Of a stretch of 36,734 bases of DNA, positions 2,274 through 23,596 are shown in pieces (the first letter of the stretch is position 1; the number at the start of each line of letters is the position of its first letter). Position numbers and translations under genes: made by a program. Location of the stretch: the IMG/VR virus record IMGVR_UViG_3300030098_006109, positions 1 through 36,734 of that record. One strand, written 5' to 3'. The notes below the pieces were generated by a model that saw only the letters and a program-made list of their open reading frames with translations, was not told the DNA's origin and ran no database searches. Source of the stretch: a virus.

Positions 2274-3755
2274 CTAATAATAGATGCGCTGCGGTACATA
2301 CCTATCAACGTCATCCTGCCAATCTTCCGGATGCGCTATAAAACCGCCTTCTCTAAAACGGCGCAACGCTTGTGTGACTGTATCAACGTAATCGTCATGC
2401 TCGCCACCGGGGAATGCAGCACATTCCTCGATAACATCCTCAGCCCAACTTGTTCCAGGTGCCCATACTAAACCAGCCTCTAATATAGGGCTGACGGTAT
2501 TTACCCGAGTAATTTTATCATTACCACGGCTAGGGCTGTAATTGATAACAGGTATACCCATTTGGCGTAACTCGTGTGTCAACGGTGTACCACTGGCCTT
2601 AGCCTCGATCAATACGCACTCAGGTTCCCAATATTTATACTCTTCTTGGGCAACACGCCGCAAGTCAGGAAAGTCCCACCTACCACGGCGGGCATCCAGC
2701 AATATCACATTAAAAGGGCCGCCTTCCTCTGGCTGGAACACACCCCACGTTGTAATCGCGCTATAGTCAGCGGCTGTCTTCTTACTATACGCCGTATCGT
2801 ACGATTGCATAATGTAACTCAGCGGGGGTAAATCCTCTTCCTCCCACACCTGCCACCAATCACGTTTGAGTATTGCCGCTGTTTCGCTTGTCGGGTTCTG
2901 CTGCCATTGAGCTTCCCACTTAGCGATAGACAAACTACCCTTAACAGACAGCAAGTCTTTTTTGTTCCAAAACTGTGGCCAAACAGGCTCATCATTCGGC
3001 ATGATAGCAGGGAACTCAATCACTTCCCACTGGTCTGCCAACACATCGCGGCCCTGCTGTTTGACTAATTTGCCAGTCAAATCATTCTCAGCCCAACGCG
3101 TCATTACGATTACGATAGCACCACCAGGCTGTAACCGCTGGCGCGGGCCACTAGTATACCACTCATATGCATTCTCTAACGCACTGGGGCTCAACGCATC
3201 TTGTTCACTATGGGGGTCGTCGATTATCAACAAATCAGCGCCCCGGCCAGTAATCGCACCGCCTACGCCAGCCGCAAAATATTCACCGCCATTACCTGTT
3301 TCCCACCGGCCGGCTGCCTTACTGTCAGCGCGCAACTGCACTTTAGGGAAGATATGTTTATACTCTTCCGTATCCATAAGGTTACGCACCTTACGGCCAA
3401 ACCGCACAGCCAACTCTGCCGTGTGCGTTGTTTGAATAATCTTCAACGTCGGGCGGCGGCCAATCAACCACGCCGGCAACAAATAACTGCTAAACTCACT
3501 CTTCGTATGGCGCGGCGGCATATTAACTATCAGCCGCTTACTCTCGCCAGTAGCTATGCGCTTAAAAGCTGCTGCCATACGGGTATGGTGCATACCGCCT
3601 ATAAACTCCGGCCAAACAACCTTCACAAAATCTAAAAAATCAGCTTGGGCAGCATCCGCCTTAGCAGTTGCACCTGCACGCTCTAACAAGTGGGCAAATA
3701 ATTTTAACTTATCTTCGGGGATGCTATCAAGGTTTACGCCTAGATCATTAGGCAT
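2274..3755 (-). CDS. terL: Terminase large subunit (ATPase and nuclease)
   Basis: Motor that translocates phage DNA into the procapsid and cuts the concatemer. The 493 residues carry a deviant Walker A (MPPRHTKS, 79-86), a Walker B (LLIIDDP, 175-181) and a coupling motif MTRW (218-221). An RNase H-like nuclease domain follows, with candidate metal ligands D320 (QSYDTA), E384 (LIEAKASG) and D454/D455 (HDDYVD). Length is typical of the family. It lies 10 bases upstream of the portal gene. The small subunit is not next to it but about 7 kb away at 10614-11141. Confidence 0.96.
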   Translation of the reverse strand: MPNDLGVNLDSIPEDKLKLFAHLLERAGATAKADAAQADFLDFVKVVWPEFIGGMHHTRMAAAFKRIATGESKRLIVNMPPRHTKSEFSSYLLPAWLIGRRPTLKIIQTTHTAELAVRFGRKVRNLMDTEEYKHIFPKVQLRADSKAAGRWETGNGGEYFAAGVGGAITGRGADLLIIDDPHSEQDALSPSALENAYEWYTSGPRQRLQPGGAIVIVMTRWAENDLTGKLVKQQGRDVLADQWEVIEFPAIMPNDEPVWPQFWNKKDLLSVKGSLSIAKWEAQWQQNPTSETAAILKRDWWQVWEEEDLPPLSYIMQSYDTAYSKKTAADYSAITTWGVFQPEEGGPFNVILLDARRGRWDFPDLRRVAQEEYKYWEPECVLIEAKASGTPLTHELRQMGIPVINYSPSRGNDKITRVNTVSPILEAGLVWAPGTSWAEDVIEECAAFPGGEHDDYVDTVTQALRRFREGGFIAHPEDWQDDVDRYVPQRIYY

Positions 3756-4402: not shown

Positions 4403-4560
4403 TATATCATGTCCCGTGGCCGATTTGATTTGCAACCTACATTATTTGTGTAGAACCGTACACATGCTAATGCCTGTGTACTGGTCTCCGTGCAAGGGGG
4501 GTGCACCCTTTTTATTTACTGGTTTTTACTGTGCTTTTATTTGGCGGGGGTCCCTGGCCG

Positions 4561-4604
4561 TTAAGTAAAAGTAAAGTAAAGGGCGGCCCATTACTGGGCC
4601 GCCG
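4561..4604 (-). terminator. Rho-independent terminator of the GA/TC-free gene
   Basis: On the minus strand a perfect 9-bp stem (GGCGGCCCA / TGGGCCGCC) with a 4-base loop follows the stop codon at 4611 by 7 bases. It is followed by a T-rich stretch (4561-4582). Even this terminator contains no GA or TC step. Bases 4405-4560 hold no gene that I can support; a GGGTGCACCC palindrome occurs near 4500. Confidence 0.8.
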
Positions 4605-4610
4605 CAAGTA

Positions 4611-5282
4611 TTAGGTTGCTGGTTTTACCCCGCTATTTGGGTTAAGCGCCACCATTACGCTTAGCGGTTTAGCAAGCGGGTTGCCGGTATGGCCGGCGCT
4701 ATTGGTTTTATTGTATACGCCGCTAAGCAAGGCTAAATAAGCACTGTTTAAGTTAGTGTTAGCGCCGTTGTTTTTGCTAAGCGTGTTACTTTTGGGGTTG
4801 TTTTTATGCGCTAACAGTGCCGCTTGTGCCAAGCTAGTGCCTTGCACCCACAGCGCGTTAAGTATAGCCATACGCACGGCGGCGTTGCCGTTTTTGTAAG
4901 TGTTATGTTGTACAAACGGCCACGTAATGCCGGCGCTAAGCCCCCAGTTATTATGGGTAGGCGTAAACCCGGCAACCTGCACAAGCCCCATATTATTTGG
5001 CCCACCGTGCTGGTTAATAAACGCGTTTAACACGGCGCAGTGTATGCTACCGCCGCCAGCGGTTGGCACACCTTTTTTGGCCGCAATAACAGTACCCGGG
5101 TTGCACCAATAAGCGGGGGTATGCGGCGTTATAATGTTAGCAAGGTTGGCGGGTATAGGGTTAGTTTTGTGTGCTTGGCTAAGTATGCCAGTGTACACCG
5201 TGCCTTTATGGTTAGGCGTGGCAATAGGTGCCGGCACGGGTTGCGCTGGGGTTGTTTGCTTTTTGGTTGGTTGTTTTGCCAT
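4611..5282 (-). CDS. Acid-free basic protein of the GA/TC-void cassette
   Basis: I do not recognise this 223-aa protein. The start is the ATG at 5280-5282; upstream in-frame residues read through the presumed promoter. It contains no Asp, no Glu and one Arg, with 14 Lys, so it is strongly cationic. It is rich in Ala, Asn, Thr, Gly and Pro. The N-terminal 35 residues are a Lys/Gln/Pro/Thr tail; the rest looks foldable, with four Trp and two Cys. Serines checked use AGY and phenylalanines use TTT, as the missing dinucleotides require: 15 sense codons are unavailable. With no GA allowed, the SD can only be the AAAGGG about 9 bases before the ATG. It has its own promoter and terminator. A nucleic-acid-binding early protein is possible; the function is unknown. 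Confidence 0.85.
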   Translation of the reverse strand: MAKQPTKKQTTPAQPVPAPIATPNHKGTVYTGILSQAHKTNPIPANLANIITPHTPAYWCNPGTVIAAKKGVPTAGGGSIHCAVLNAFINQHGGPNNMGLVQVAGFTPTHNNWGLSAGITWPFVQHNTYKNGNAAVRMAILNALWVQGTSLAQAALLAHKNNPKSNTLSKNNGANTNLNSAYLALLSGVYNKTNSAGHTGNPLAKPLSVMVALNPNSGVKPAT

Positions 5283-5337
5283 TGTGTTAAACCCTTTACT
5301 GGTTAGGGCATAGCCCCATTGGCTATGCCATATTGTT

Positions 5338-5365
5338 ATAATAGCGCACCGCGCGCGTTTTGCAA
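5338..5365 (-). promoter_or_regulatory. Candidate sigma70-like promoter for the GA/TC-free gene
   Basis: Minus-strand TTGCAA (5365-5360) and TATTAT (5343-5338) are separated by 16 bases. This would start transcription near 5331 and leave a leader of about 48 bases. It is the only such pair I see between the 21-aa gene and the ATG at 5282. If used, the gene can be read by host RNA polymerase. The promoter too is free of GA and TC. Confidence 0.5.
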
Positions 5366-5376
5366 TAGTGCAAAAC
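5357..5376. promoter_or_regulatory. Palindromic candidate operator over the -35 box
   Basis: GTTTTGCAATAGTGCAAAAC is a perfect inverted repeat with 8-base arms and a 4-base centre. It overlaps the proposed -35 box, the usual place for repressor binding. A related palindrome, TTTTGCAAAA, lies at 27021-27030 in the other control region. No bound protein can be named; the HTH proteins at 3765-3980 and 8798-9037 are candidates. Confidence 0.45.
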
Positions 5377-5391
5377 ACAAAAAAGTGAAAT

Positions 5392-5457
5392 TTAATTTAG
5401 CGCGACGACTAGCAGAATAGCGAATGCCGCTGCGAGGGTTGCGAGGAGTAAAAGCAT
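5392..5457 (-). CDS. 21-aa single-TM peptide, relative of 10072-10137
   Basis: A 21-residue, wholly hydrophobic peptide starting at the ATG at 5455-5457, with AAAGG about 8 bases upstream. It aligns without gaps to the 21-aa peptide at 10072-10137 with 12 identical positions, including ATL, FA and LLV. This shared length and sequence is why I call it a gene. A longer frame reaching back to 5634 reads through GC-rich repeats and is less likely. It would form one membrane helix; the role is unknown. Confidence 0.5.
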   Translation of the reverse strand: MLLLLATLAAAFAILLVVALN

Positions 5458-5680
5458 GGGTGGACCCTTTGCTGGTTGCACTATGGTAAGCAACCACGGC
5501 CGAGCGGCGCGGCCTAGCAAAAAGCGCTCCGGCTCCGGTCGGGGTCCGGTCGGGGTCCGGCTCCGGTCGGGGTCCGGTCTTTCTTCTCTCTGTCTACCTT
5601 CCTGTGTCCTAGAAAGTAGATCGTCCTTGATCATTTGCGATCTGATTATCAGTTATCGACTGTCAACCATCGACCATCGT
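5458..5680. other. Gene-poor spacer with GC-rich and ATCG-rich repeats
   Basis: No gene is well supported here. The right half is a mosaic of short repeats: GC-rich iterons at 5527-5579, a pyrimidine-rich tract (TTTCTTCTCTCTGTC) at 5579-5593, then many GATC, ATCGACC and TTATC words at 5627-5710. I counted about 50 GA/TC steps in 5521-5760, roughly twice expectation and next to an interval with none. A replication origin or protein-binding array is possible. Confidence 0.5.
5527..5579. repeat. GC-rich direct repeats
   Basis: The unit GGCTCCGGTCGGGGTCC (17 bases) occurs twice, separated by the partial copy GGTCGGGGTCC and followed by GGTC. The shorter word GGGGTCCGG occurs three times. Such closely spaced repeats can be iterons for a replication or partition protein, or can simply arise by slippage. 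Confidence 0.75.
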
Positions 5681-9145: not shown

Positions 9146-9736
9146 TTACTTTGCCACAACCAAACGAATAAAGCTAGTGCCCCATGTTGCGCTGCTACGT
9201 GATTGGCCACCGTTCAGCAACATCAAGGTCATGATGTTGTTTTTAGCACTCGTGCCACGCTTGGCCCCCGCTCGTAGTATAGTGCTTAGGCGGTTGTCAC
9301 CGTTTACGCCATGCAAGTGGTCCATAAGGTCATGGTAACGTGTGCCTTTGTCGGTGTACGTTTTGTCGCGGAAAAACGGTACTGGCCGGTCAGTATCAAG
9401 GGCTACGTTAGGTAACGCCTCAACACGCACGTTTTGTGGTTGACCACCCGCATACGTGCGTATGAACTGCCGTATAGTTTCCCAGGTAATTTCACCACTT
9501 GGGTGCTTTTCAGCGCCAAAGGTTACCCCGCCTTGGTCACTTTGCAGTGTGGCCACTTGCTCTGTGGCTTTAGGCTTGGGTGATGCAGCAGGCTTTGCTT
9601 TAGCCTCCGGCTTTTTGGCAACAGGAATGTCAATAGTCTTGACATTTTTGTGCTGCTTTGCCCGACCTTTAACAATTTGGTCGGCAGTGGGTTTGCTCGG
9701 CAAACCAGTTTTTGAAACAAGTGCATGTACAGTCAT
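9146..9736 (-). CDS. Hypothetical protein with Lys/Pro/Ala linker
   Basis: 196 aa, ATG at 9734-9736 with GGAGAAAGGGG upstream. Residues 1-32 form a small basic segment, 35-60 are a Lys/Pro/Ala-rich flexible linker, and 65-196 look globular. The C-terminal part has basic patches (RAGAKRGTSAKNN), so nucleic acid binding is possible. No family recognised. Confidence 0.7.
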   Translation of the reverse strand: MTVHALVSKTGLPSKPTADQIVKGRAKQHKNVKTIDIPVAKKPEAKAKPAASPKPKATEQVATLQSDQGGVTFGAEKHPSGEITWETIRQFIRTYAGGQPQNVRVEALPNVALDTDRPVPFFRDKTYTDKGTRYHDLMDHLHGVNGDNRLSTILRAGAKRGTSAKNNIMTLMLLNGGQSRSSATWGTSFIRLVVAK

Positions 9737-10613: not shown

Positions 10614-11141
10614 TTACTCGCTTGTAAGCACTTTATAATCTGCTGTTATTTCCTTCAGTGCGGGGTAATCCTTTTGCATGTCTTGTATTGCCCGCATCAC
10701 CTCTTCACGGTTCATTTGATCGATCTTGCCGTGCATGATTTCTTTACGGTCAATGTAGATACCAGCAGCTTGACCACGAAACTTTTCTGCATTGATAGCG
10801 GCCGCAAAGTTACCAGCTTGCATCGCCTCGTCTCGCAGCTCAGCTAGTTTGCGCACATGGTTTTCAAAGTTGACTTCGTACTTACGACCAAGCTCTTCTT
10901 TGATTTCACGTATGCGGCGCGTCACGTTAGGCCATCGCTTTGGGTTAAGCAGTTCGCTAGCTTTACTATGTGCGCTGCGATTACTGTAGCCAGCCTCAAC
11001 CGCGCACTGACTTTGCGTCAAATCATCGCGGGTGGCGTACAGCATCGCAAACTTTTCTTGTATTTTAGTCAGCCCTTTCTCGCGCTTTGGATTCGCTACG
11101 ACTTCAAGCTGTTTTTTGTGTGTGACTTTAGGTGCTACCAT
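10614..11141 (-). CDS. terS: Terminase small subunit (Terminase_2 type)
   Basis: 175 aa. Recognises the packaging site and loads TerL. LTKIQEKFAMLYATRDDLTQ followed by AVEAGYSNRSAHSKASELLN (about residues 23-65) matches the N-terminal HTH of Terminase_2 proteins. A long helical region follows (EELGRKYEVNFENHVRKLAE), ending in GQAAGIY. The ATG at 11139-11141 overlaps the TAA of the upstream gene (TAATG). It is unusual in lying about 7 kb away from terL. Confidence 0.85.
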   Translation of the reverse strand: MVAPKVTHKKQLEVVANPKREKGLTKIQEKFAMLYATRDDLTQSQCAVEAGYSNRSAHSKASELLNPKRWPNVTRRIREIKEELGRKYEVNFENHVRKLAELRDEAMQAGNFAAAINAEKFRGQAAGIYIDRKEIMHGKIDQMNREEVMRAIQDMQKDYPALKEITADYKVLTSE

Positions 11142-11623
11142 TACATCCAATTAGGGCGTGGCCGCCCCCATCTATAATGAACAATGCCTAGACTTTCCTT
11201 ATATTTGTAATAATCGCGGTAAGCAACAATCAGGTCATCATTTTTGTACTCGTCAGGCATGCACTGTGGCACTGGCGTGAACAGATTTGTGGCAATACCG
11301 AACGGTATTTGCGCGAGTGGCAATAACAATCGTATGGAGGCGTGGGTTTTGCCACGCCTGAACTTGAACTCTTCATGCAAGTGATAGAACAGATGGTGCG
11401 TCCATACATAGTTTTCCTTGCTGGTGCGCACCCAGACTGTCATTGGGTGATTCATGTATGCTTTTTGATACAGCCGGCATGCATCAGCATAACCATTACC
11501 ATCGGTCAGCCTGTGTGCTGTGCATAGCATCTGTGCTGTTTCCAACACCATTTTCACCACATGCTTATCACCGTGCATTTGTGCGGCACGCTGCGGGTCA
11601 GTATCAAGGTGAAATATATTCAT
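11141..11623 (-). CDS. Conserved marine-phage protein, HVVKM-ETAQ family
   Basis: 160 aa, ATG at 11621-11623 with AAAGGGG upstream. MNIFHLDTDPQRAAQMHGDK (1-20) with HVVKMVLETAQML (21-33) is a pattern that I remember from many marine phages. Conserved His and Glu residues suggest an enzyme, but no reaction is established to my knowledge. The C-terminus is aromatic and basic (HYRWGRPRPNWM). It is translationally coupled to terS. Confidence 0.7.
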   Translation of the reverse strand: MNIFHLDTDPQRAAQMHGDKHVVKMVLETAQMLCTAHRLTDGNGYADACRLYQKAYMNHPMTVWVRTSKENYVWTHHLFYHLHEEFKFRRGKTHASIRLLLPLAQIPFGIATNLFTPVPQCMPDEYKNDDLIVAYRDYYKYKESLGIVHYRWGRPRPNWM

Positions 11624-12658: not shown

Positions 12659-14572
12659 TCAAGCTATCAAAGCAGGTGTCCAAGGTTCATCTGCGAACGT
12701 TTGTTTTGCGTCGCCCCAGTTTGCACCGAACTCAGCATCCACTAAACTCGGTACAGTCAGTGATACGCATGTTTCCATAATTTCTTTGATGGCCCGCGCA
12801 TCTTTTTCGCTGCATACAGAAACATCAAGTTCATCATGAACTTGGATCATTGGCAAGTAGCCATTGTCATATAAAGCGACCATCGCAGCTTTGGTTTGGT
12901 CTGCTGCGCTGCCTTGTATGAGTTTGTTCAGTGCCTTGTACGTGAACGCTCGCCGAATGCTAGGGCCATGCTCACTGAACGCGTCTTGGTATGTCATTGG
13001 CTTGTAAGTGCCATACTTACTTGGCTCCCACTTGTCAAAACGGCAGCGTCGGCCCAGCAGTGTGCGGATCACGCCTTTGGTAGCTGCGCGCTTGCTGGCG
13101 TACTCGCTGAGTTGATTGACAAAGGGCACTTTGTCGTGGTACTCCGTAAACAGCTTTTTACCTTCTTCCATCTCTAAGCCCAGACTAGTAGCTAGCTTAC
13201 GAGTGCCCATGCCGTAGAACAAACCGAGGTTAATGTCCTTAGCTTGTTTACGCGGCACGCCTACGATGTCTGCGGCCATTTGGTGAAAGTCAGTGTGCAC
13301 ATCGCGGTTGTACTCATCAGCGAACGCTTGTGCGCCCCTGAACTCTAACAGGCTTGCGTAGTGCACAACTAGCCGTGGCTCTTGGCTGCTGTAGTCAAAA
13401 GCACCCCACAACGCATCCCGCTCAGGTAAGAACAAACTGCGGATCATAGGGCCAATCTGTGCATTACGTGCGGGCATTTGCTGTAAGTTCGGGCTGCTGT
13501 AGCTGAACCGGCCTGTGATTGTACCTGCATCATCACTGCGTAACTGGTGTAGCTCTGCGTGGATGCGGCCATTGTGGCTGTGCTTTAATATCGTATCAAC
13601 GAATGTAGTACGAGCCTTATTCAGCTCGCGCGTTTCTACGATCAGTTTTGGTACTGTATGAGTATGGTTTTTCAGCCAAAACTTCGTAAAGCTCGGCGCA
13701 TCTGTTTTTTCAGTGCGGGGGTAGGGTAAGTCAATCGCATCAAAGGCGTCAGCTATACTGGCGGCTGCCCAGATCTCTACATGCTTACCTGTTTCCTTGT
13801 GTAGCTGAGCGAGTAACTGCTGCTCTTGCTGGTGAAAGTAACCCTTGAGATACTCTGCCCGGTCAAGGTCAATGCGCACACCTTGCTGCCGCATGGGGAT
13901 AACAGTAGCTAGTACCTTGTGCTCAAGGTCTACAACGTCAGCTATGTCCTCCTGCACAATAAGCGATTGGAAGTAGTTCCACAGGCGCAGTGTCAATGCT
14001 GCATCTTGCTCAGCGTATGCGCCAACAAAACTGGCTGGCAGTTTGAACATCTCGCTTTTGGCATCAACGCCAAACTCAGCGGCAGCTTCGCGTAGGTCTT
14101 TCTCAGACTTGATGTCTGCTAGGTAATCACGGCTGAGATTGTTCAGCGAGTAACTGAACCTGTTTTCATCAAGCAGCGGTGCCACTACCATCGTATCACG
14201 TATTTGGCCACGCACCTTCACGCTTTCAGCAAGTAGCCAGCCCACATCGTATTGTGCGTTGTGGAAGATGAGCTGTTTGGCAGGGTCGCCAGTTATACTT
14301 GCCACCCAGCGTAATGTGCGGCGCGGATCAAGGTTTGGACCGATCTCATGCCGGATGGGGAAGTACCACTGATTATCAGCTACCGCCACCGCAATACCGA
14401 TGATAAAGCCGTCTTGTCGTGCCCAGCCGCTACCTAACTCACGCAGGTTTGGGTCACGTGTTTCAAGGTCAATAGCTACAGTATCGTAAGCACGTAAGTC
14501 AGGATACTCGGTGGGTGCTACCCACTCTGTTTTTGGCGCGAAGAATGTCATTTGCCCTGGGCTTTTATTCAT
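12659..14572 (-). CDS. polA: Family A DNA polymerase with 3'-5' exonuclease
   Basis: Replicative polymerase of 637 aa. Exonuclease motifs: DLE (35-37), FHNAQYD (103-109) and YAEQD (186-190). Polymerase motif A DYSSQEPR (393-400), motif B RKQAKDINLGLFYG (441-454), motif C QVHDELDV (577-584). There is no 5'-nuclease domain and no DnaJ-like Cys cluster. Aligning motif B with E. coli Pol I (R754, K758, F762) puts Leu449 at the F762 position, a variant linked to marine phage groups. It works with the primase and helicases at 20553-26870. Confidence 0.97.
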   Translation of the reverse strand: MNKSPGQMTFFAPKTEWVAPTEYPDLRAYDTVAIDLETRDPNLRELGSGWARQDGFIIGIAVAVADNQWYFPIRHEIGPNLDPRRTLRWVASITGDPAKQLIFHNAQYDVGWLLAESVKVRGQIRDTMVVAPLLDENRFSYSLNNLSRDYLADIKSEKDLREAAAEFGVDAKSEMFKLPASFVGAYAEQDAALTLRLWNYFQSLIVQEDIADVVDLEHKVLATVIPMRQQGVRIDLDRAEYLKGYFHQQEQQLLAQLHKETGKHVEIWAAASIADAFDAIDLPYPRTEKTDAPSFTKFWLKNHTHTVPKLIVETRELNKARTTFVDTILKHSHNGRIHAELHQLRSDDAGTITGRFSYSSPNLQQMPARNAQIGPMIRSLFLPERDALWGAFDYSSQEPRLVVHYASLLEFRGAQAFADEYNRDVHTDFHQMAADIVGVPRKQAKDINLGLFYGMGTRKLATSLGLEMEEGKKLFTEYHDKVPFVNQLSEYASKRAATKGVIRTLLGRRCRFDKWEPSKYGTYKPMTYQDAFSEHGPSIRRAFTYKALNKLIQGSAADQTKAAMVALYDNGYLPMIQVHDELDVSVCSEKDARAIKEIMETCVSLTVPSLVDAEFGANWGDAKQTFADEPWTPALIA

Positions 14573-14747
14573 ACTTACGCACCCTCATCAATTTACGGCA
14601 GGAGCACCTTGGCCATTTGTTTTTCAGCACACGAGCAACAATCAGCCTTTGTTCTTTGCAAACAGAACACACAGCTAACAAAGGTGTTTCCAAGCTATTA
14701 CGCTCAGGTATCTTCGTTTGGGTCAATAGGCTCTTTGTTAATTTCAT
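14565..14747 (-). CDS. Small zinc-finger-like protein overlapping polA
   Basis: A frame of up to 60 aa with CSVC (27-30) and CSC (48-50) and a very basic C-terminus (RKLMRVRKYE), so a small zinc knuckle is likely. Its stop overlaps the polA start by 8 bases. The ATG at 14745-14747 overlaps the upstream gene by 44 bases and lacks a clear SD; a shorter form starting at a TTG near 14690 is possible. Reality is supported by the Cys pattern and placement only. Confidence 0.5.
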   Translation of the reverse strand: MKLTKSLLTQTKIPERNSLETPLLAVCSVCKEQRLIVARVLKNKWPRCSCRKLMRVRKYE

Positions 14748-15057
14748 GGTTGTCCACTTGGCCGTTAAGCTGGCACCAGGCCTCTACCAAAAACAGGTAT
14801 CGGCGTAGGTCGCGTATATCATCAATGATGCCTTCCTGCCGCTGGTCTTGGGCTACAGCTTTGAACACATCATAACCGTGCTGCTCAACTTGTAGCTCTA
14901 GCCTATCCCACTTGCGGGCCAGCATCATGTATGCGCCAACACCGCCACGCTTACGCCAGCTATCACCATAGCTAGCTTCTGCACGGTGCAAACTCTGTGT
15001 ATCTTCCTGGGCAAGTTGTAGAACCTCAAGCGTGGTATCACTAAGCACTCTTTTCAT
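14704..15057 (-). CDS. Nmad1/DUF1599-like protein
   Basis: 117 aa. YGDSWRKRGGVGAYMMLARK (30-49) with WDRLE and then GIIDDIRDLRRYLFLVEA (76-93) resembles the DUF1599 family, named nucleotide modification associated domain 1. Its members occur near DNA-base modification genes in phages. Here it sits next to a hydroxymethylase-type thymidylate synthase and an aGPT-PPlase-like gene. The exact reaction is not known. It overlaps the FkbM gene by 17 bases. Confidence 0.6.
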   Translation of the reverse strand: MKRVLSDTTLEVLQLAQEDTQSLHRAEASYGDSWRKRGGVGAYMMLARKWDRLELQVEQHGYDVFKAVAQDQRQEGIIDDIRDLRRYLFLVEAWCQLNGQVDNHEINKEPIDPNEDT

Positions 15058-15691
15058 TTGCGTCCACCCAATAACTGTTGCAATCCTCGGCTTTTACAAA
15101 AGTGTAGCCCGCTTGTTCCAACGCTGCATATTTTTGTAGTCGCACTTCGTTTTGCCTTTCTTCAAAGGCTTTAGTGCCTTTGCCCCTTGGAGCCACAAAA
15201 TCTTCTGTGATGATTTCTACAGGGCGCACAGCAAAATCATAACCACACAAAATGTTTGCGTCGTTGCCCTCTGTGTCGATTTTGAGAATGTCAATGCGGG
15301 TAACTTCATTTTCGGCAAACAGTGTGTTCAAAGTTTTGATGTCCACCGTTTGATACTCATCTGTTAAGTGCTGTGCGATATAGTATTCCTCTGCAACAAG
15401 AGAAGAACGCATGCATTTTTCTTTTTGTGCAGGCGACCTACGATCAAAAAACCCATATTTGCCCATGTACAATCGGCCTACTTTGTCCTCTGTGTCAATG
15501 GCACACCGAACATATTTGTAGTCAGTGCCTTGCAGGCTTTTGTGAATCTCATCTTGCATGTGCATGTTTGGCTCAACCATCAAGCCAAACCATTGCTCTT
15601 TTTTGCGGTGCAACAGCTTGTGCGCTAGCGATTGTGTGCGCGCGTTGAAGCAGCCAATATCAACTATTACTTTTTTGTTTTGCTCCGGCAC
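15041..15691 (-). CDS. FkbM-type SAM methyltransferase
   Basis: About 216 aa. VIVDIGCFNARTQSLAHKL near the N-terminus is the SAM-binding loop, VEPN is the acidic strand end, and IDILKIDTEGNDANILCGYD is the FkbM signature. FkbM enzymes methylate hydroxyl groups, often on sugars. The GTG at 15689-15691 has AGGAGGAG at good spacing; a TTG two codons upstream (15695-15697) is too close to that SD. It overlaps the thymidylate synthase-like gene by 32 bases. A modified base or its attached sugar is a plausible substrate. Confidence 0.85.
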   Translation of the reverse strand: MPEQNKKVIVDIGCFNARTQSLAHKLLHRKKEQWFGLMVEPNMHMQDEIHKSLQGTDYKYVRCAIDTEDKVGRLYMGKYGFFDRRSPAQKEKCMRSSLVAEEYYIAQHLTDEYQTVDIKTLNTLFAENEVTRIDILKIDTEGNDANILCGYDFAVRPVEIITEDFVAPRGKGTKAFEERQNEVRLQKYAALEQAGYTFVKAEDCNSYWVDANEKSA

Positions 15692-16766
15692 AGCCAAACT
15701 CCTCCTCTGGTGCTAACACCTTAAACCCTGCTTTTGTGACTCTGCGGTTAAGCCACTCGTGACATGCACGCCGCCAATCAGGCGCTTCAATCGTTTGCAC
15801 GATGTCTTGCGCGTGGAGTATGTACGGCACCTCTTCTGAAAGTTTGTACCGCTTCCACTCAAGGTATGCTTCTGCAACGGGCACGGCTACGTCACGGAAA
15901 AAACTGTTTTTAGTCGTGCGTAGTTGATCTGGTAGCGTGCTTGAGTGCACATAATTTTGGCCTGTGTACTCAATAAACATTTGTAGGTCGCTATCAAACT
16001 TTTCAGTGTCGTGCACCAAATCTGCTAGGGGATACAGCCCATCGGTCGGGGGCAAAAGGTAAGGGTCGTAGTCAGGCTGCATACCATCTAGCTTACCAAG
16101 TGTTTCAAGGTAAGCATGAAAGTTATTGCTGAACTGTGTGTAGGTGCCGACTTTGCAGCCCACATGCGCCGCAACGTACTCTTGCAGGTAACTCATATGC
16201 ACTGCATTCGCACCCAGCGCACCCCAAATCATATCATTACTGCGGTTGCACACTGTCATGTGGAGCCGCTCTAGGCTGTCAATGCGGAAGTAGATGTGCG
16301 TGTTGCATGGCAGATCGACGTTTTTGTTACTGCGCACTAAATCATCACGCGGATCCCACATACCTAGCACTGCCCTGCGATCGTTTGGGTAGCAGCTCAG
16401 CCGGTGAATCACTGTTTCAAGCTGGTCGTCAAAAAAGTGTTTGCGCCAACGATAGCCATACGCACCGTGGAAAGTTTTGCCGTTATCGCTGTACACAGAC
16501 ATGCGGTTGTTGAACCGTTGTATCCATTCAACATCGTTGCGGCCAGCTAGCATCCACATACTTTCCAGCAAGTGGAAGAATGGGTTTGCGTCACGCTCAG
16601 GGTAAAACAGCACCCGCTCACGGGGCAGTTCGTAGGTGATTGCTATTGGGTAGGGGAACTCCAGCGCAGGGCCATTGCGTGTATCTTGCTGCACGCCATG
16701 CTCCCGTATTGCCTGGTTGACCACATACAATGCCTCGCTGACATTGCGCACATTAAAAGCTCGCAT
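15660..16766 (-). CDS. Thymidylate synthase / dUMP-dCMP hydroxymethylase family
   Basis: 368 aa from the ATG at 16764-16766 (SD GAGGAGG). FHGAYGYRWRKHF (99-111) fits the folate-site region. DLPCNTHIYFRI (151-162) holds the catalytic Cys154. NRSNDMIWGALGAN (174-187) is the phosphate and base-binding stretch. The last differs from the usual RSxDxxLGxPFN of ThyA, and many phages keep this variant. It would add a methyl or hydroxymethyl group to dUMP or dCMP using methylene-folate. Neighbouring modification genes favour hydroxymethylation, which the sequence alone cannot prove. Confidence 0.85.
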   Translation of the reverse strand: MRAFNVRNVSEALYVVNQAIREHGVQQDTRNGPALEFPYPIAITYELPRERVLFYPERDANPFFHLLESMWMLAGRNDVEWIQRFNNRMSVYSDNGKTFHGAYGYRWRKHFFDDQLETVIHRLSCYPNDRRAVLGMWDPRDDLVRSNKNVDLPCNTHIYFRIDSLERLHMTVCNRSNDMIWGALGANAVHMSYLQEYVAAHVGCKVGTYTQFSNNFHAYLETLGKLDGMQPDYDPYLLPPTDGLYPLADLVHDTEKFDSDLQMFIEYTGQNYVHSSTLPDQLRTTKNSFFRDVAVPVAEAYLEWKRYKLSEEVPYILHAQDIVQTIEAPDWRRACHEWLNRRVTKAGFKVLAPEEEFGCAGAKQKSNS

Positions 16767-17790
16767 GCTTTTGCCTCCTCGCTGGTTCAAGCTCTTCCAT
16801 AGCTTGTATCAGGGCGCTGTCCAAACCTTCGCGCTCTTTAATAGCGTTTTGCACCCACATACTCTTTTGCTGTGCTTGCCACTCCTCTGGCACAGGCATA
16901 CCTGCTCGTTGTATGCCTTCCAAAGATGTAACTGTCCACTCTGCCGGCACCACGTAACCAGCTTGTGTGAGTGTATGCACAGCCGCTTCGTCCACGTACA
17001 TAAACAGGCCCACACTCAACGCTTCGTAAAAGCGGTTTGCAGGACTGGTGTAAACGTAGTGGCTTGTTTCATCTTCCAGGTACACCGTTGCACCATAAGC
17101 AGCTAACTCACCCAGGTCTTTGAACGGTTTGCAAAAGCTCACATGGTCAGGTGTGTATGGTCTCTGTGGGTGTGTAAGCACACAGTCACCTGCGGCCTCA
17201 AGGAACTTGCGCTGCACTTTGCCGGCGCAGCTTATAACCACCGGCCCACGTTTAACGCTGTCGCCGCCCAGCAGCAGCCTTCTGAAAGCGCCTAACCTAC
17301 CGGGCCGGCATGCCCCCCAATAAAACAACACCGCCGGTTGTGCCCCCCTTAAAAGGGCTTTAGGCACAGCTTCGTTAAATGTAAGGGCGTTCCAATTTAT
17401 ATACCTGTCCCCAGGCTTACAGCAGTAGTCAGGCACCGTGCTCCACAGGTAGATGTCGCCCGTGGTAAAGGGGAAGTCGTGGCTCCAGCCACGTTCGTCC
17501 CGCACTACCTTTTGCACTTGGCTGATTGGGTGAACGTTATAATCGTTCTGCACATATATCAGTTTGTCACAACCCCGCGCTTGTTGGGCTAGCTCAAGCC
17601 GCAACTCTGGCGGAGCAAACGCACCCATGCTGTTTACATAGATGATGTTTTTGTACTGCTTCTGCCATAGACCAGGTTGATCTACCAAGGGCAGGTCAAA
17701 CATGGTGGCAATGTATTTGGCGATGCGCGCGCTGGCGATAGTAGTCTGCGCAGCGCACTTCGTCAGGTGCACTACTACAGTATCAGCCAT
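16753..17790 (-). CDS. GT-B-like glycosyltransferase
   Basis: 345 aa, ATG at 17788-17790 preceded by GGGA. The central AVLFYWGACRPGRLGAFRR and the C-terminal YTSPANRFYEALSVGLFMYV (around residue 265) look like the donor-binding half of GT-B enzymes, where a conserved Glu follows the N-R-F-x motif. In this position it could glycosylate a modified base, although capsule or protein targets are also possible. Its start overlaps the upstream aGPT-PPlase-like gene by 8 bases. Confidence 0.6.
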   Translation of the reverse strand: MADTVVVHLTKCAAQTTIASARIAKYIATMFDLPLVDQPGLWQKQYKNIIYVNSMGAFAPPELRLELAQQARGCDKLIYVQNDYNVHPISQVQKVVRDERGWSHDFPFTTGDIYLWSTVPDYCCKPGDRYINWNALTFNEAVPKALLRGAQPAVLFYWGACRPGRLGAFRRLLLGGDSVKRGPVVISCAGKVQRKFLEAAGDCVLTHPQRPYTPDHVSFCKPFKDLGELAAYGATVYLEDETSHYVYTSPANRFYEALSVGLFMYVDEAAVHTLTQAGYVVPAEWTVTSLEGIQRAGMPVPEEWQAQQKSMWVQNAIKEREGLDSALIQAMEELEPARRQKHASF

Positions 17791-18718
17791 TGTATTCCCA
17801 CGCCCCCTCGCCACGGTTGACGGTGCCTTCTTCTACAGGCCAGCTCAGCCCCCACATATAATCAACCTTACTACGGGGCCTGCCTTGGTCTTGGTATACA
17901 CGCATCCACTTATCCCACTCACACAGGCTATGCTCAATGCAGCGCATGTCAACTTCGTTCATTGGGATGTGTGCACCTAAGTGCTGTGGAGCGTACTCGT
18001 CAAGCAGATCACGCATCTCATCATTCCAGTTTATGCCACTGGCGTTGAGTGGGCGGTTGCTCAAACGGTTCAGGCCACGCTTTGCTCCTGGGCCGGCGTT
18101 TGCCCAACGGAGTACATCAAGCGCCAGCGACAACACAGGCATATGGTTGAGGTCTGTCACAACCTCGTAAGCCATAAAGCCACCGCCACCCCAGCCACGA
18201 TACTTACTCAGCTCGTTGTGGAACACTTGCAGGTATGGGTCGCTATGGGCAAGGTCTGCCAAATCTTCCTTAGCTTCCCAAATGGGCGCAAGGAAGTGGT
18301 CAACAACTACTTCTTCTTTTGGTAAGTTTAGTCCTTGGTTCGTTATGATGTATGCCCCTGTGAACACTTTTTGCTTTTTGTCTAAACGTTCACGGGCAAC
18401 ACTTTTCAAAAGCCCTGGGTTCCACTCCTCTTGCCAGCCCACTGAGGCAGCATATTCAGGCGTACCAAACATGCGGAATAAGCAGGTGTTGAAAATTTGT
18501 AGGCCCCAGGACTTATTATTGTTCGGCTGCGTCCAGTGGCGGCGCATCCATATAGTTACCCTATCGTTTTCGCGGAACGGGTTTGTGAACTTGTACGCGC
18601 GCATAATCTCATCGTCAGTCCAAGGTGCTGGCTGACCAGCTAACCTTTTGAGATAGATGTTATGGCGCTCGTTGATCCAGTAGAAAAATAATTCTACGTT
18701 CTCCTGGTCAAACTGCAT
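17783..18718 (-). CDS. aGPT-PPlase / amino acid:DNA transferase-like protein
   Basis: 311 aa, ATG at 18716-18718 behind AGGAG. WINERHNIYLKR (14-25), PWTDDEI (32-38) and YKFTNPFREND (42-52) match the start of the alpha-glutamyl/putrescinyl thymine pyrophosphorylase family. FTGAYIITNQG (119-129) and the glycine-rich GWGGGGFMAYEVVTDL (175-190) fit its HhH glycosylase-derived core. Members act on hydroxymethyluracil derivatives in phage DNA to build hypermodified thymine. No P-loop kinase is visible here, so part of such a pathway may lie outside the window. The family call is from motif memory. Confidence 0.75.
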   Translation of the reverse strand: MQFDQENVELFFYWINERHNIYLKRLAGQPAPWTDDEIMRAYKFTNPFRENDRVTIWMRRHWTQPNNNKSWGLQIFNTCLFRMFGTPEYAASVGWQEEWNPGLLKSVARERLDKKQKVFTGAYIITNQGLNLPKEEVVVDHFLAPIWEAKEDLADLAHSDPYLQVFHNELSKYRGWGGGGFMAYEVVTDLNHMPVLSLALDVLRWANAGPGAKRGLNRLSNRPLNASGINWNDEMRDLLDEYAPQHLGAHIPMNEVDMRCIEHSLCEWDKWMRVYQDQGRPRSKVDYMWGLSWPVEEGTVNRGEGAWEYNG

Positions 18719-20552: not shown

Positions 20553-22064
20553 CTAAGCAGGGATGATGTATCCGTGGCCATGCATAGGATGTACAAGGTG
20601 CAATGATTGCTTTGCCCTAGTTAAGCCGACATAAAACACACGCGCTTCGTCATCCTGCTCTGCAGCAGTCCACCGGCTACGTGATCGCTTACTTATATCG
20701 GTCACCAAACACACGTTATCAGCTTGGGCACCTTTTGCCCTGTGAATGGTTGATATACGGATGCGGGGCTTACCTGTCAAGTTTTCACCTTTTTTCAAAC
20801 AAGCTGCGATGTACCGCCGGTCGCGCTCGCTAACTAGGGCTAGTGCTTCGTGCCAAGGTGCTTTAGTCATCAAGCCAAAGTTATCCATCAAGTCTTGCAA
20901 ACTGTACAAGCCGTCTTCTTCAATGTTCGGCAGCCCCTTGTAGCCGTAGGCGATCTGATCGTTTATGCGGAAGTATTTGTACACTTTGCGTATCTCAGCC
21001 ACAGGTAAACGCGCACCCTCGCGCAACCGCTCCCACAAAGTGATTGCACGTATCACCTTACTGTCAGCGGTAGAGCTGCCCTCAAAGTCATACAAAAAGC
21101 CACGGCTGCGCACCTCTTCCTCAAGCTGGTTAGCGCCACGCACAGTGCGAGCTAGCAACAGCCAATCACCACTGGATAAGTCAACCTGCTCGCTGTGCCT
21201 GTACCAAAACAGAGTGCCATCTTCATCACGCGGCATGAACGTTTTATCCCTGCGCGAAAAGATGCGCTGTATCAACTTCTGGCTGACTTCATGGTGTGAA
21301 CGTGGTATGCGGTACGACTGTGACAGCGTATGTACTTTGCCCGCAAGATTGATGAAGTGGTCAACATCAGCACCCGCCCATCGGTAGATAGCTTGGTCAT
21401 CATCACCTGCGATATACACGCGCTGTGCGCGCTCGGCTATTTTGTGGACCATGCGCCACTGCAAACTAGATAAGTCTTGTGCTTCGTCAACAATTACAAC
21501 GTCTAATCGGGGTGCGAACTCACTAGCTACAAAATGCTCGATCATGTCAGTGTAATCAAACATGGAATGGACTTTTTTGTAGTGGGCAAGCCCACGAGCA
21601 ACATACTCAAGATTGCGCCACGTAATCAAATGCCGGGCTGGGCTGTCTTCATATACTTTGCGCAGTGGCTTTTGAATGATGCGCGCAATATTGATTAACT
21701 CAAGGTATTTATCGCCGTAGCCAAAATCTCTGAACGGGCCTGTTTCTGTATCATATCCAAAAAAGCTACCAATTTTCAGCCAGTTCGCTACTTCGTCAAA
21801 ATGCTTACGGCCCATGATTTGGCTACGGATAATACCGATTTGTGTGTATGCAAGGCTGTGTAGAGTTCTAAAATACGGTAGGTCACTTGCAGAAAGGTTG
21901 AACCGCTCCATAGCGCGGTGCTTTGCCTCAAGGCTGGCACGCCGCGTGAACGCTAAGTAAGCGATACGATCTGGTGGCACACCATCTGCCAAACATTTTT
22001 CTACAATGCGTATGCTAGTTTCTGTTTTGCCCGTGCCTGGTGGGCCAAGGAATATTTCTATCAT
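20553..22064 (-). CDS. UvrD/Rep-like SF1 DNA helicase
   Basis: 503 aa ATP-dependent 3'-5' type helicase. Motif I GPPGTGKTE (7-15), motif Ia AFTRRA, motif II VVIVDEAQDLSSLQ, motif III AGDDDQAIYRWAGA, motif IV LSQSYRIPRS, motif V STIHRAKGAQADNV and motif VI VFYVGLTRAK are all intact. The start overlaps the primase stop as ATGA, so the two are co-translated. With no DnaB-type helicase in view, it may serve in replication. Confidence 0.95.
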   Translation of the reverse strand: MIEIFLGPPGTGKTETSIRIVEKCLADGVPPDRIAYLAFTRRASLEAKHRAMERFNLSASDLPYFRTLHSLAYTQIGIIRSQIMGRKHFDEVANWLKIGSFFGYDTETGPFRDFGYGDKYLELINIARIIQKPLRKVYEDSPARHLITWRNLEYVARGLAHYKKVHSMFDYTDMIEHFVASEFAPRLDVVIVDEAQDLSSLQWRMVHKIAERAQRVYIAGDDDQAIYRWAGADVDHFINLAGKVHTLSQSYRIPRSHHEVSQKLIQRIFSRRDKTFMPRDEDGTLFWYRHSEQVDLSSGDWLLLARTVRGANQLEEEVRSRGFLYDFEGSSTADSKVIRAITLWERLREGARLPVAEIRKVYKYFRINDQIAYGYKGLPNIEEDGLYSLQDLMDNFGLMTKAPWHEALALVSERDRRYIAACLKKGENLTGKPRIRISTIHRAKGAQADNVCLVTDISKRSRSRWTAAEQDDEARVFYVGLTRAKQSLHLVHPMHGHGYIIPA

Positions 22065-23596
22065 AGCACGTCTTTTTCAGCGGCGAGTGGTGGTAGGGCT
22101 AAGGGCTGCTCTTCACCTTCAAACATGCTTTGCGGTAACGACCATACATGCACGCCCTTATTGCGCACTCGCCAAAACGTTTTTTCAGCAGTCATGTCTT
22201 GTAGGCGCAACGTAATTTTGTTTGACCCGTATGAGGTGAAGTCGTTAGCTTGTAGATGCTTGCGCACATCTTTCACCTGGAAAAACACGCGGTCCTCCAC
22301 CCATACGGATATGCCTTGCAGAATGTCGTCGCGGTCTGTACCACGCGCCCGCTCACAGCAAAATGAAAACAGTAAGTCTTCAAACTCACCTTCAAGCGTG
22401 GCATCAGGCGGCACCTCAACCACAGTAACGTTATCTAATAGTGTCTGTATTTTGGTCTGCCAAGCGCGTTGGTTTACCGTAACGGGAAACCTGTTAATCT
22501 GCGCAACGCACTCTTTTTGAAACTGCGTTTGTACCGTCAGGCCACTGGTAGTTAGCTCAAGCCGCTGGCCATCTACGTTCAGCAGCCATATGGGTGGATC
22601 ACCATTTATTTTTGTTAAACTAGAAAGGTCGCTACTTATGCCTGTTGGTCCTACACCATACTTACGCTCACGGCATAAAACTTTATCACAGTGTGCATTT
22701 ATAGGTTGGTCCTCACAACGGTAAAAATAATCTTTTTTACTAAGCTGTTTTATTATGGTGCCCACTTCATTGTGACCAAGGGGCGGGTTCAAATGTTCAA
22801 TATTATATTTATGCACTAATGTTTCCCAGTTCTCTTCATCAAACATTCGTGCATATACGCCTAGATTAAACAGCGCATTATTGCGGCTGCCCTCGGTAAA
22901 CCCGCGTGCGCATAAATGTTGAAGGCACGGTGGCCCTTGTTCAAGAACTTCAGTGGGTGCGTATCCGCCAAACAGTTCAGCTATGTTTAGAACATGAAAT
23001 TGTTCAAAGTTCAAAGTACGTTCTTTAGAAACAGAGATAAATTCAGCCATATCCAAACTATTACCGGTAGTATCAAAAGCGTACCGTACGGTGCGCTCAC
23101 CGGCTTGATACGGCATATTCAAAAAATTACCAACGTCGCCACGGTCAAGAAGTAATTGCTCTTGTTTTGGAAATATTTCGCTTTTTGCAAACCCTAATGT
23201 CGCGGCTAATTCTGTAAGTTTCCGCCGCATATCTGCAGCAGTCACTGGTTCACTACAAAACATCCATAAATGTGCGCCGCCAGACTTACTACGACCGACC
23301 ACTACAGGTATTTGTTTTGTGGCTAACTCTTTAGCTAACTTCGGTAAGTCAACCGAATAATCATCAATATCAATAGCTCCCCAATAGCAGGTATTATCGG
23401 TACGGATAGGTATGATGGCCAGTCCCGTACCTCCTGCTAAGTGTTCCTTCCAATGTTCCACGGTAGCCGGCAGGCGAACAGCACTCGTTGTGCCTTGTTG
23501 TTTCACCCGCCCATTAGATTGCCCAATTACAAAAATGCCATGTGCAATCTCGCTACCTTGGAACAGTTCAAAGAACTGCTCCGCTATGTCCTGCAT
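22061..23596 (-). CDS. AEP-type primase (TOTE-like primase domain)
   Basis: 511 aa. The archaeo-eukaryotic primase core has the DxD site in WGAIDIDDY (72-80), then VVVGRSKSGGAHLWMF (98-113) and SEIFPKQEQLL, as in primases of TOTE systems and phage primase-polymerases. Around residues 230-320 there is a helical domain that recalls PriCT, followed by a Cys/His cluster (YRCEDQPINAHCDKVLC), perhaps a zinc site. The C-terminal 180 residues are unassigned. It makes primers for PolA. Its ATG overlaps the TAA of the SSB-like gene. Confidence 0.85.
   Translation of the reverse strand: MQDIAEQFFELFQGSEIAHGIFVIGQSNGRVKQQGTTSAVRLPATVEHWKEHLAGGTGLAIIPIRTDNTCYWGAIDIDDYSVDLPKLAKELATKQIPVVVGRSKSGGAHLWMFCSEPVTAADMRRKLTELAATLGFAKSEIFPKQEQLLLDRGDVGNFLNMPYQAGERTVRYAFDTTGNSLDMAEFISVSKERTLNFEQFHVLNIAELFGGYAPTEVLEQGPPCLQHLCARGFTEGSRNNALFNLGVYARMFDEENWETLVHKYNIEHLNPPLGHNEVGTIIKQLSKKDYFYRCEDQPINAHCDKVLCRERKYGVGPTGISSDLSSLTKINGDPPIWLLNVDGQRLELTTSGLTVQTQFQKECVAQINRFPVTVNQRAWQTKIQTLLDNVTVVEVPPDATLEGEFEDLLFSFCCERARGTDRDDILQGISVWVEDRVFFQVKDVRKHLQANDFTSYGSNKITLRLQDMTAEKTFWRVRNKGVHVWSLPQSMFEGEEQPLALPPLAAEKDVL

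Follow-up and report, generated by a model that had tools for sequence, protein, structure and literature searches.

What keeps two dinucleotides out of a whole gene and its flanks in a viral genome that uses them by the thousand elsewhere? The question is raised by a virus record of 36,734 bases (the whole stretch of DNA analysed, here called the window), in which a GA/TC-free island, a feature of neither strand in particular, occupies positions 4552..5387 (836 bp). Counting all 836 bases gave GA = 0 and TC = 0; the void is bounded by TC at 4551-4552 and GA at 5387-5388, and both motifs are also absent from another 64 bp (4487-4550) beyond the lone TC at 4551. The void of 835 bases reported in an earlier reading of the letters, the original prediction, is real, and AG (45) and CT (28) are common inside it, as that reading had claimed. 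The second-longest GA/TC-free run in the window measures 88 bp, and for other dinucleotide classes no motif-free run exceeds 164 bp. In an order-1 Markov simulation of the window (n=200), the longest GA/TC-free run was 81 bp on average and 118 bp at most; against 836 bp, a chance origin of the void is out.

The void encloses what looks like one small transcription unit. Its gene, at 4611..5282 on the minus strand (672 bases), encodes an open reading frame of 223 aa without Asp or Glu and corresponds to the relatives' island genes in position and by weak sequence similarity; two close relatives of the protein were found in IMG/VR. Upstream of the gene, a putative sigma70-like promoter (TTGCAA-N16-TATTAT, 5338..5365, minus strand) is supported by its position, the number of such matches being no better than chance. 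The 5' leader contains an inverted repeat, GGCATAGCC/GGCTATGCC (5307..5329, minus strand). Downstream, a sequence scan predicts an intrinsic terminator with a 9-bp stem, GGCGGCCCA/TGGGCCGCC, and a T-rich tail (4560..4604, minus strand), and the island stops just past it. These promoter and terminator scans are suggestive, and they agree with the original prediction, which had placed a terminator, a 672-base gene and a promoter region within the void. Its argument that protein composition cannot be the cause also holds, because the non-coding flanks and the synonymous sites are void too; a fully void island, in turn, necessarily yields a protein without Asp and Glu. Just beyond the island, GGTCGGGGTCC/GGCTCC-type tandem repeats lie at 5526-5580, within ORF 5392-5634.

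The phenomenon recurs. Relatives were collected by a large-terminase search (80 loci), and most loci with enough upstream sequence show a GA/TC void of ~500-1180 bp immediately upstream of the large terminase gene, which in the window lies at 2274..3755 (minus strand). Islands were found in dozens of related marine phages, on contigs with a G+C content of ~35 to 53%. Zero GA/TC was counted in 46 of 62 distinct island genes (24,321 bp, with 2388 expected), ~39 of the 46 being roughly independent as judged by shared 12-mers; with overlapping contigs and related lineages, such counts cannot be treated as independent trials. Each of five long records (58-69 kb; one covered to 60 of 62 kb) contains a single island. 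As a check, the original prediction had proposed aligning homologous cassettes to see whether GA/TC remains absent as the sequences change, and it does: the homologous island of L003 differs from that of the window by 99 substitutions and still has neither motif (P ~5e-18 for substitutions under no constraint against forming the motif).

Each island is a complete transcription unit, promoter to terminator. In the mean of near-perfect islands, GA/TC density drops from ~95 to <5 per kb over the stretch from ~-200 to -80 relative to the start codon and rises again 80-120 bp past the stop codon. The void opens ~100 bp upstream of the start codon and closes shortly after the terminator; in the 3 islands displayed, stem-loops lie 3' of the stop codon. 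The stretch from -140 to -70, which is mostly untranscribed, holds 50 GA/TC where 436 are expected. The rare exceptions to the void include Shine-Dalgarno sequences at -9/-10, e.g. AGGAGT. Altogether, the data support the original proposal of a process that sees double-stranded DNA and has a two-base target.

The motif itself varies between clades. In the islands of L034/L036/L038, ATC is absent (53 expected) and TTC occurs twice (50 expected), while CTC (23 vs 39 expected) and GTC (16 vs 25 expected) are retained; this clade avoids WTC only. Furthermore, the two strands are not equal once an island relaxes, as TC is regained on the coding strand and hardly on the template strand. The TC:GA ratio in the genes of partly relaxed islands is 30:1 in L063, 17:0 in L053 and 16:2 in L052, and three islands of a later set gave GA:TC of 0:16, 1:11 and 0:6; the ordinary-composition paralogues described below, counted for comparison, contain 861 TC and 715 GA. 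Since GA also encodes Asp and Glu, we recounted the asymmetry at synonymous sites, summing over the relaxed groups with L034/L036 left out. G stood before an A-starting codon in 0 of 434 cases, GGA was used in 1 of 173, and T stood before a C-starting codon in 37 of 186, compared with 122 of 1271, 57 of 441 and 258 of 773 for the same classes in the paralogues. As GA on the coding strand is TC on the template strand, it is template-strand TC that is least tolerated. The island gene of L022 (9370-9738) has regained Asp/Glu codons and TC, with zero GA at synonymous sites; this phage has modification genes.

Genes for thymidine hypermodification accompany the islands. On the minus strand of the window, a thymidylate-synthase (TS)-like protein (15660..16790; PF00303, E 3e-20) is 45% identical to the enzyme of phage M6 and, judged by its sequence, is probably a dUMP hydroxymethylase. 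It is followed by a protein without an HMM match (16753..17814), which appears GT-B-like by eye and sits where relatives have glycosyltransferases, and by the thymidine hypermodification enzyme HMUDK_hel (17783..18718; PF18723, E 1e-46; also annotated aGPT-PPlase1), a candidate for a TC-specific step. A family A DNA polymerase (12659..14572, minus strand) belongs to the same module. In 14 of 14 records compared, the TS-like gene and HMUDK_hel occur together in one replication module; the 14 regions were fetched around HMUDK_hel matches, so that the new information is the presence of TS and the common module. The arrangement recalls M6, in which TS-like and HMUDK_hel/aGPT-PPlase1 genes also lie beside the DNA polymerase gene; unlike M6, ViI and phiW-14, the island phages often add glycosyltransferases, which in some of them are of the TAGT family (TET-associated glycosyltransferase, PF20691). 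In L099 (5846-7616) and its relatives, TAGT and a radical SAM/SPASM protein are encoded between TS and HMUDK_hel; in other island phages a GT-B-like or unassigned protein takes their place. As the enzyme at this position varies by lineage, the final base decoration probably differs as well.

Among records selected by HMUDK_hel and containing a terminase gene, 18 of 22 have an island, and the complete genomes of HTVC027P, HTVC023P, 023Pt_psg01, DSL-LC04 and MinM2 show neither an HMUDK_hel match nor a void. The first four of these share the replication module, and the stretches fetched from them were without TS and HMUDK_hel. In DSL-LC04 (L087), AG and the words AAG, AGA, CAGA and AGAG are strongly depleted at 14330-18300, adjoining the large terminase gene; no dinucleotide void was found near the terminase, and neither TS nor HMUDK_hel was found in the phage. 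The HTVC023P-type pelagiphages of clades V, VIII and IX, for which TS, aGPT-PPlase1 and a putative glucosyltransferase were reported previously, belong to the same broad phage group (PMC9599517); the passages on which we draw mention neither a TC-free island nor the gene pair.

In phages M6, ViI and phiW-14, which share a 5hmdU intermediate, hypermodified T occurs mainly at TG and TC, where the 5hmdU DNA kinase acts (PMC6449724, PMC7653180), a preference that includes TC, as we propose for the island phages. Bulky modifications block bacterial RNA polymerase, and for T7 polymerase the inhibition comes chiefly from the template strand (PMC11550810). With modification at TG/TC in known phages and such a block to RNA polymerase, the island can be read as a unit free of the modification target. 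We thus hypothesize that the phage exchanges thymine in its DNA for another base or decorates it, with a bulky step acting on the T of 5'-TC-3' (GA on the opposite strand). One self-contained unit, promoter to terminator, would be kept TC-free on both strands and hence never be modified, and would stay readable by RNA polymerase while the remaining genome is modified. That the TC-free unit is an exemption from the phage's own modification, allowing RNA polymerase to read it, we regard as likely. Of the options listed in the original prediction, the evidence favours avoidance of a base-modifying enzyme specific for GA/TC. Base modification, double-stranded DNA and the two-base target stood; the recurrence of the island, its match to a transcription unit, the paralogue and the thymidine-hypermodification genes had been missed.

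The paralogue bears on what the exempted unit may be for. Most lineages have a second family member of ordinary composition, located upstream; in the window it lies at 9146..9736 (minus strand) and has 196 aa with 16 Asp+Glu. Comparing island genes with paralogues, hhalign supported homology for three island-gene groups (probability 88-100%) and gave no significant result for the window's own island protein against the paralogue family. A family model found matches in all 10 modified genomes and in none of the 5 unmodified ones. Pfam, PHROGs and NCBIfam contain no family for either protein, and YdaS matches are weak and limited to 3 of 40 family members. The AlphaFold models have a confident core; a fold search with the paralogue against BFVD and with a relative's island protein against PDB gave no match. 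For a phage-encoded RNA polymerase, a search with PF00940 found no match, the control being likewise unmatched. We propose a jump-start in which the host polymerase would read the island first from the incoming modified virion DNA, the island product would then aid expression of the modified genome, and the ordinary-composition paralogue would be an unconstrained copy, used once the modified genome can be expressed. This timing, rather than late expression, is the weakest step, a guess that explains the gene pair and to which we give slightly less than an even chance. The complete picture, a sequence-encoded self-exemption in which the host polymerase expresses one unit from fully modified virion DNA, as a start switch blind to the modification, and an unconstrained paralogue accompanies that unit, is a little more tentative still. 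Late expression or an anti-defence function would use the same unmodified unit.

Several observations count against the exemption hypothesis. An island is weak or missing in the four remaining HMUDK_hel-positive records (G046, G047, G064 and G069), and depletion is no more than mild in L022 and L063, with TS and HMUDK_hel present in those checked; the association between island and modification genes is not one-to-one. M6 and Sonora, in which T modification is known or predicted, have no island for TG, TC or both in the ~50 kb covered of each (84% and 78% of the genome). Transcription of the late structural genes from modified DNA would also have to be achieved in some way, and the chance-level promoter match in the window adds to this side as well.

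Among the alternatives, the one that survives best, though unlikely, is that a host Type IV nuclease or DNA glycosylase damages the modified genome and that the island, being unmodified, escapes and provides a counter-defence protein. Defences that depend on base modification are known in general. GmrSD, for example, has been discussed in these terms (PMC6449724). A gene-sized, modification-free unit fits such a role, and so does the template-strand asymmetry, because abasic template sites block transcription; however, most members carry the protein pair, of which an attack would destroy the ordinary copy, and the protein has no match to a known fold (PDB and BFVD searched). Less probable again is that a DNA element, be it a packaging start, a replication origin or the leading genome end, must stay unmodified and that the gene is incidental. 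The two terminase genes do flank the island, which lies immediately upstream of the large-subunit gene (a candidate for the small subunit lies at 10614..11150, minus strand, in the window), yet the island follows one gene with promoter and terminator, its strand asymmetry is oriented to transcription, and the gene belongs to a conserved family.

Two further alternatives appear very improbable, to the same degree. Avoidance of a GA/TC-cutting nuclease or nickase, one of the original suggestions, or of host restriction would agree with a short motif missing from both strands, but GA and TC occur by the thousand elsewhere in the same genome and long genomes have one island each. Where it is known in phages, restriction-site avoidance is genome-wide and usually partial. 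It is likewise selection against a short DNA motif, whereas the island phages avoid the motif completely throughout one transcription unit and not at all outside it, where GA and TC are common. Selection on RNA, in which an RNase cutting at GA and UC would spare the island messenger, accounts for messenger-strand GA being the last to return in relaxed islands, but leaves aside that the promoter DNA, mostly untranscribed, lacks the motifs almost as fully, that reverse-complement symmetry, including WTC/GAW, is natural for DNA only, and that DNA-modification genes co-occur with the islands. Least credible is another original suggestion, that a TC-preferring cytosine deaminase has acted on the locus up to its end state: TT and AA do exceed expectation from composition in the window's island, but the reading frames are intact and conserved instead of decayed as at a RIP-like mutated locus, Shine-Dalgarno exceptions persist, the limits are sharp at promoter and terminator, and the WTC-only clade keeps CTC and GTC while losing ATC and TTC.

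To return to the exemption hypothesis, the open-access literature yielded no published description of such a TC-free island. Base J (glucosyl-hydroxymethyluracil) of kinetoplastids is a modified thymine that affects transcription termination (PMC4150806); the likeness to the island phages is in working only, in that a modified thymine would affect transcription, and base J marks chosen sites, whereas the island phages would keep one unit mark-free by sequence. If the hypothesis is true, heavy DNA modification costs transcription, and the virus evades this cost by spelling one gene with a restricted set of letters. The motif that a phage DNA-modifying enzyme targets (TC; WTC in one clade) could then be revealed by sequence alone, and the islands would point to a protein family with a probable role where modified DNA meets RNA polymerase.

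Elsewhere in the window, the gene at 11141-11623, beside the small terminase candidate, matches phrog_624 strongly and pyrimidine dimer DNA glycosylase (PF03013) weakly, and a primase at 22061-23596 carries the archaeo-eukaryotic primase domain of TOTE conflict systems (PF22548).
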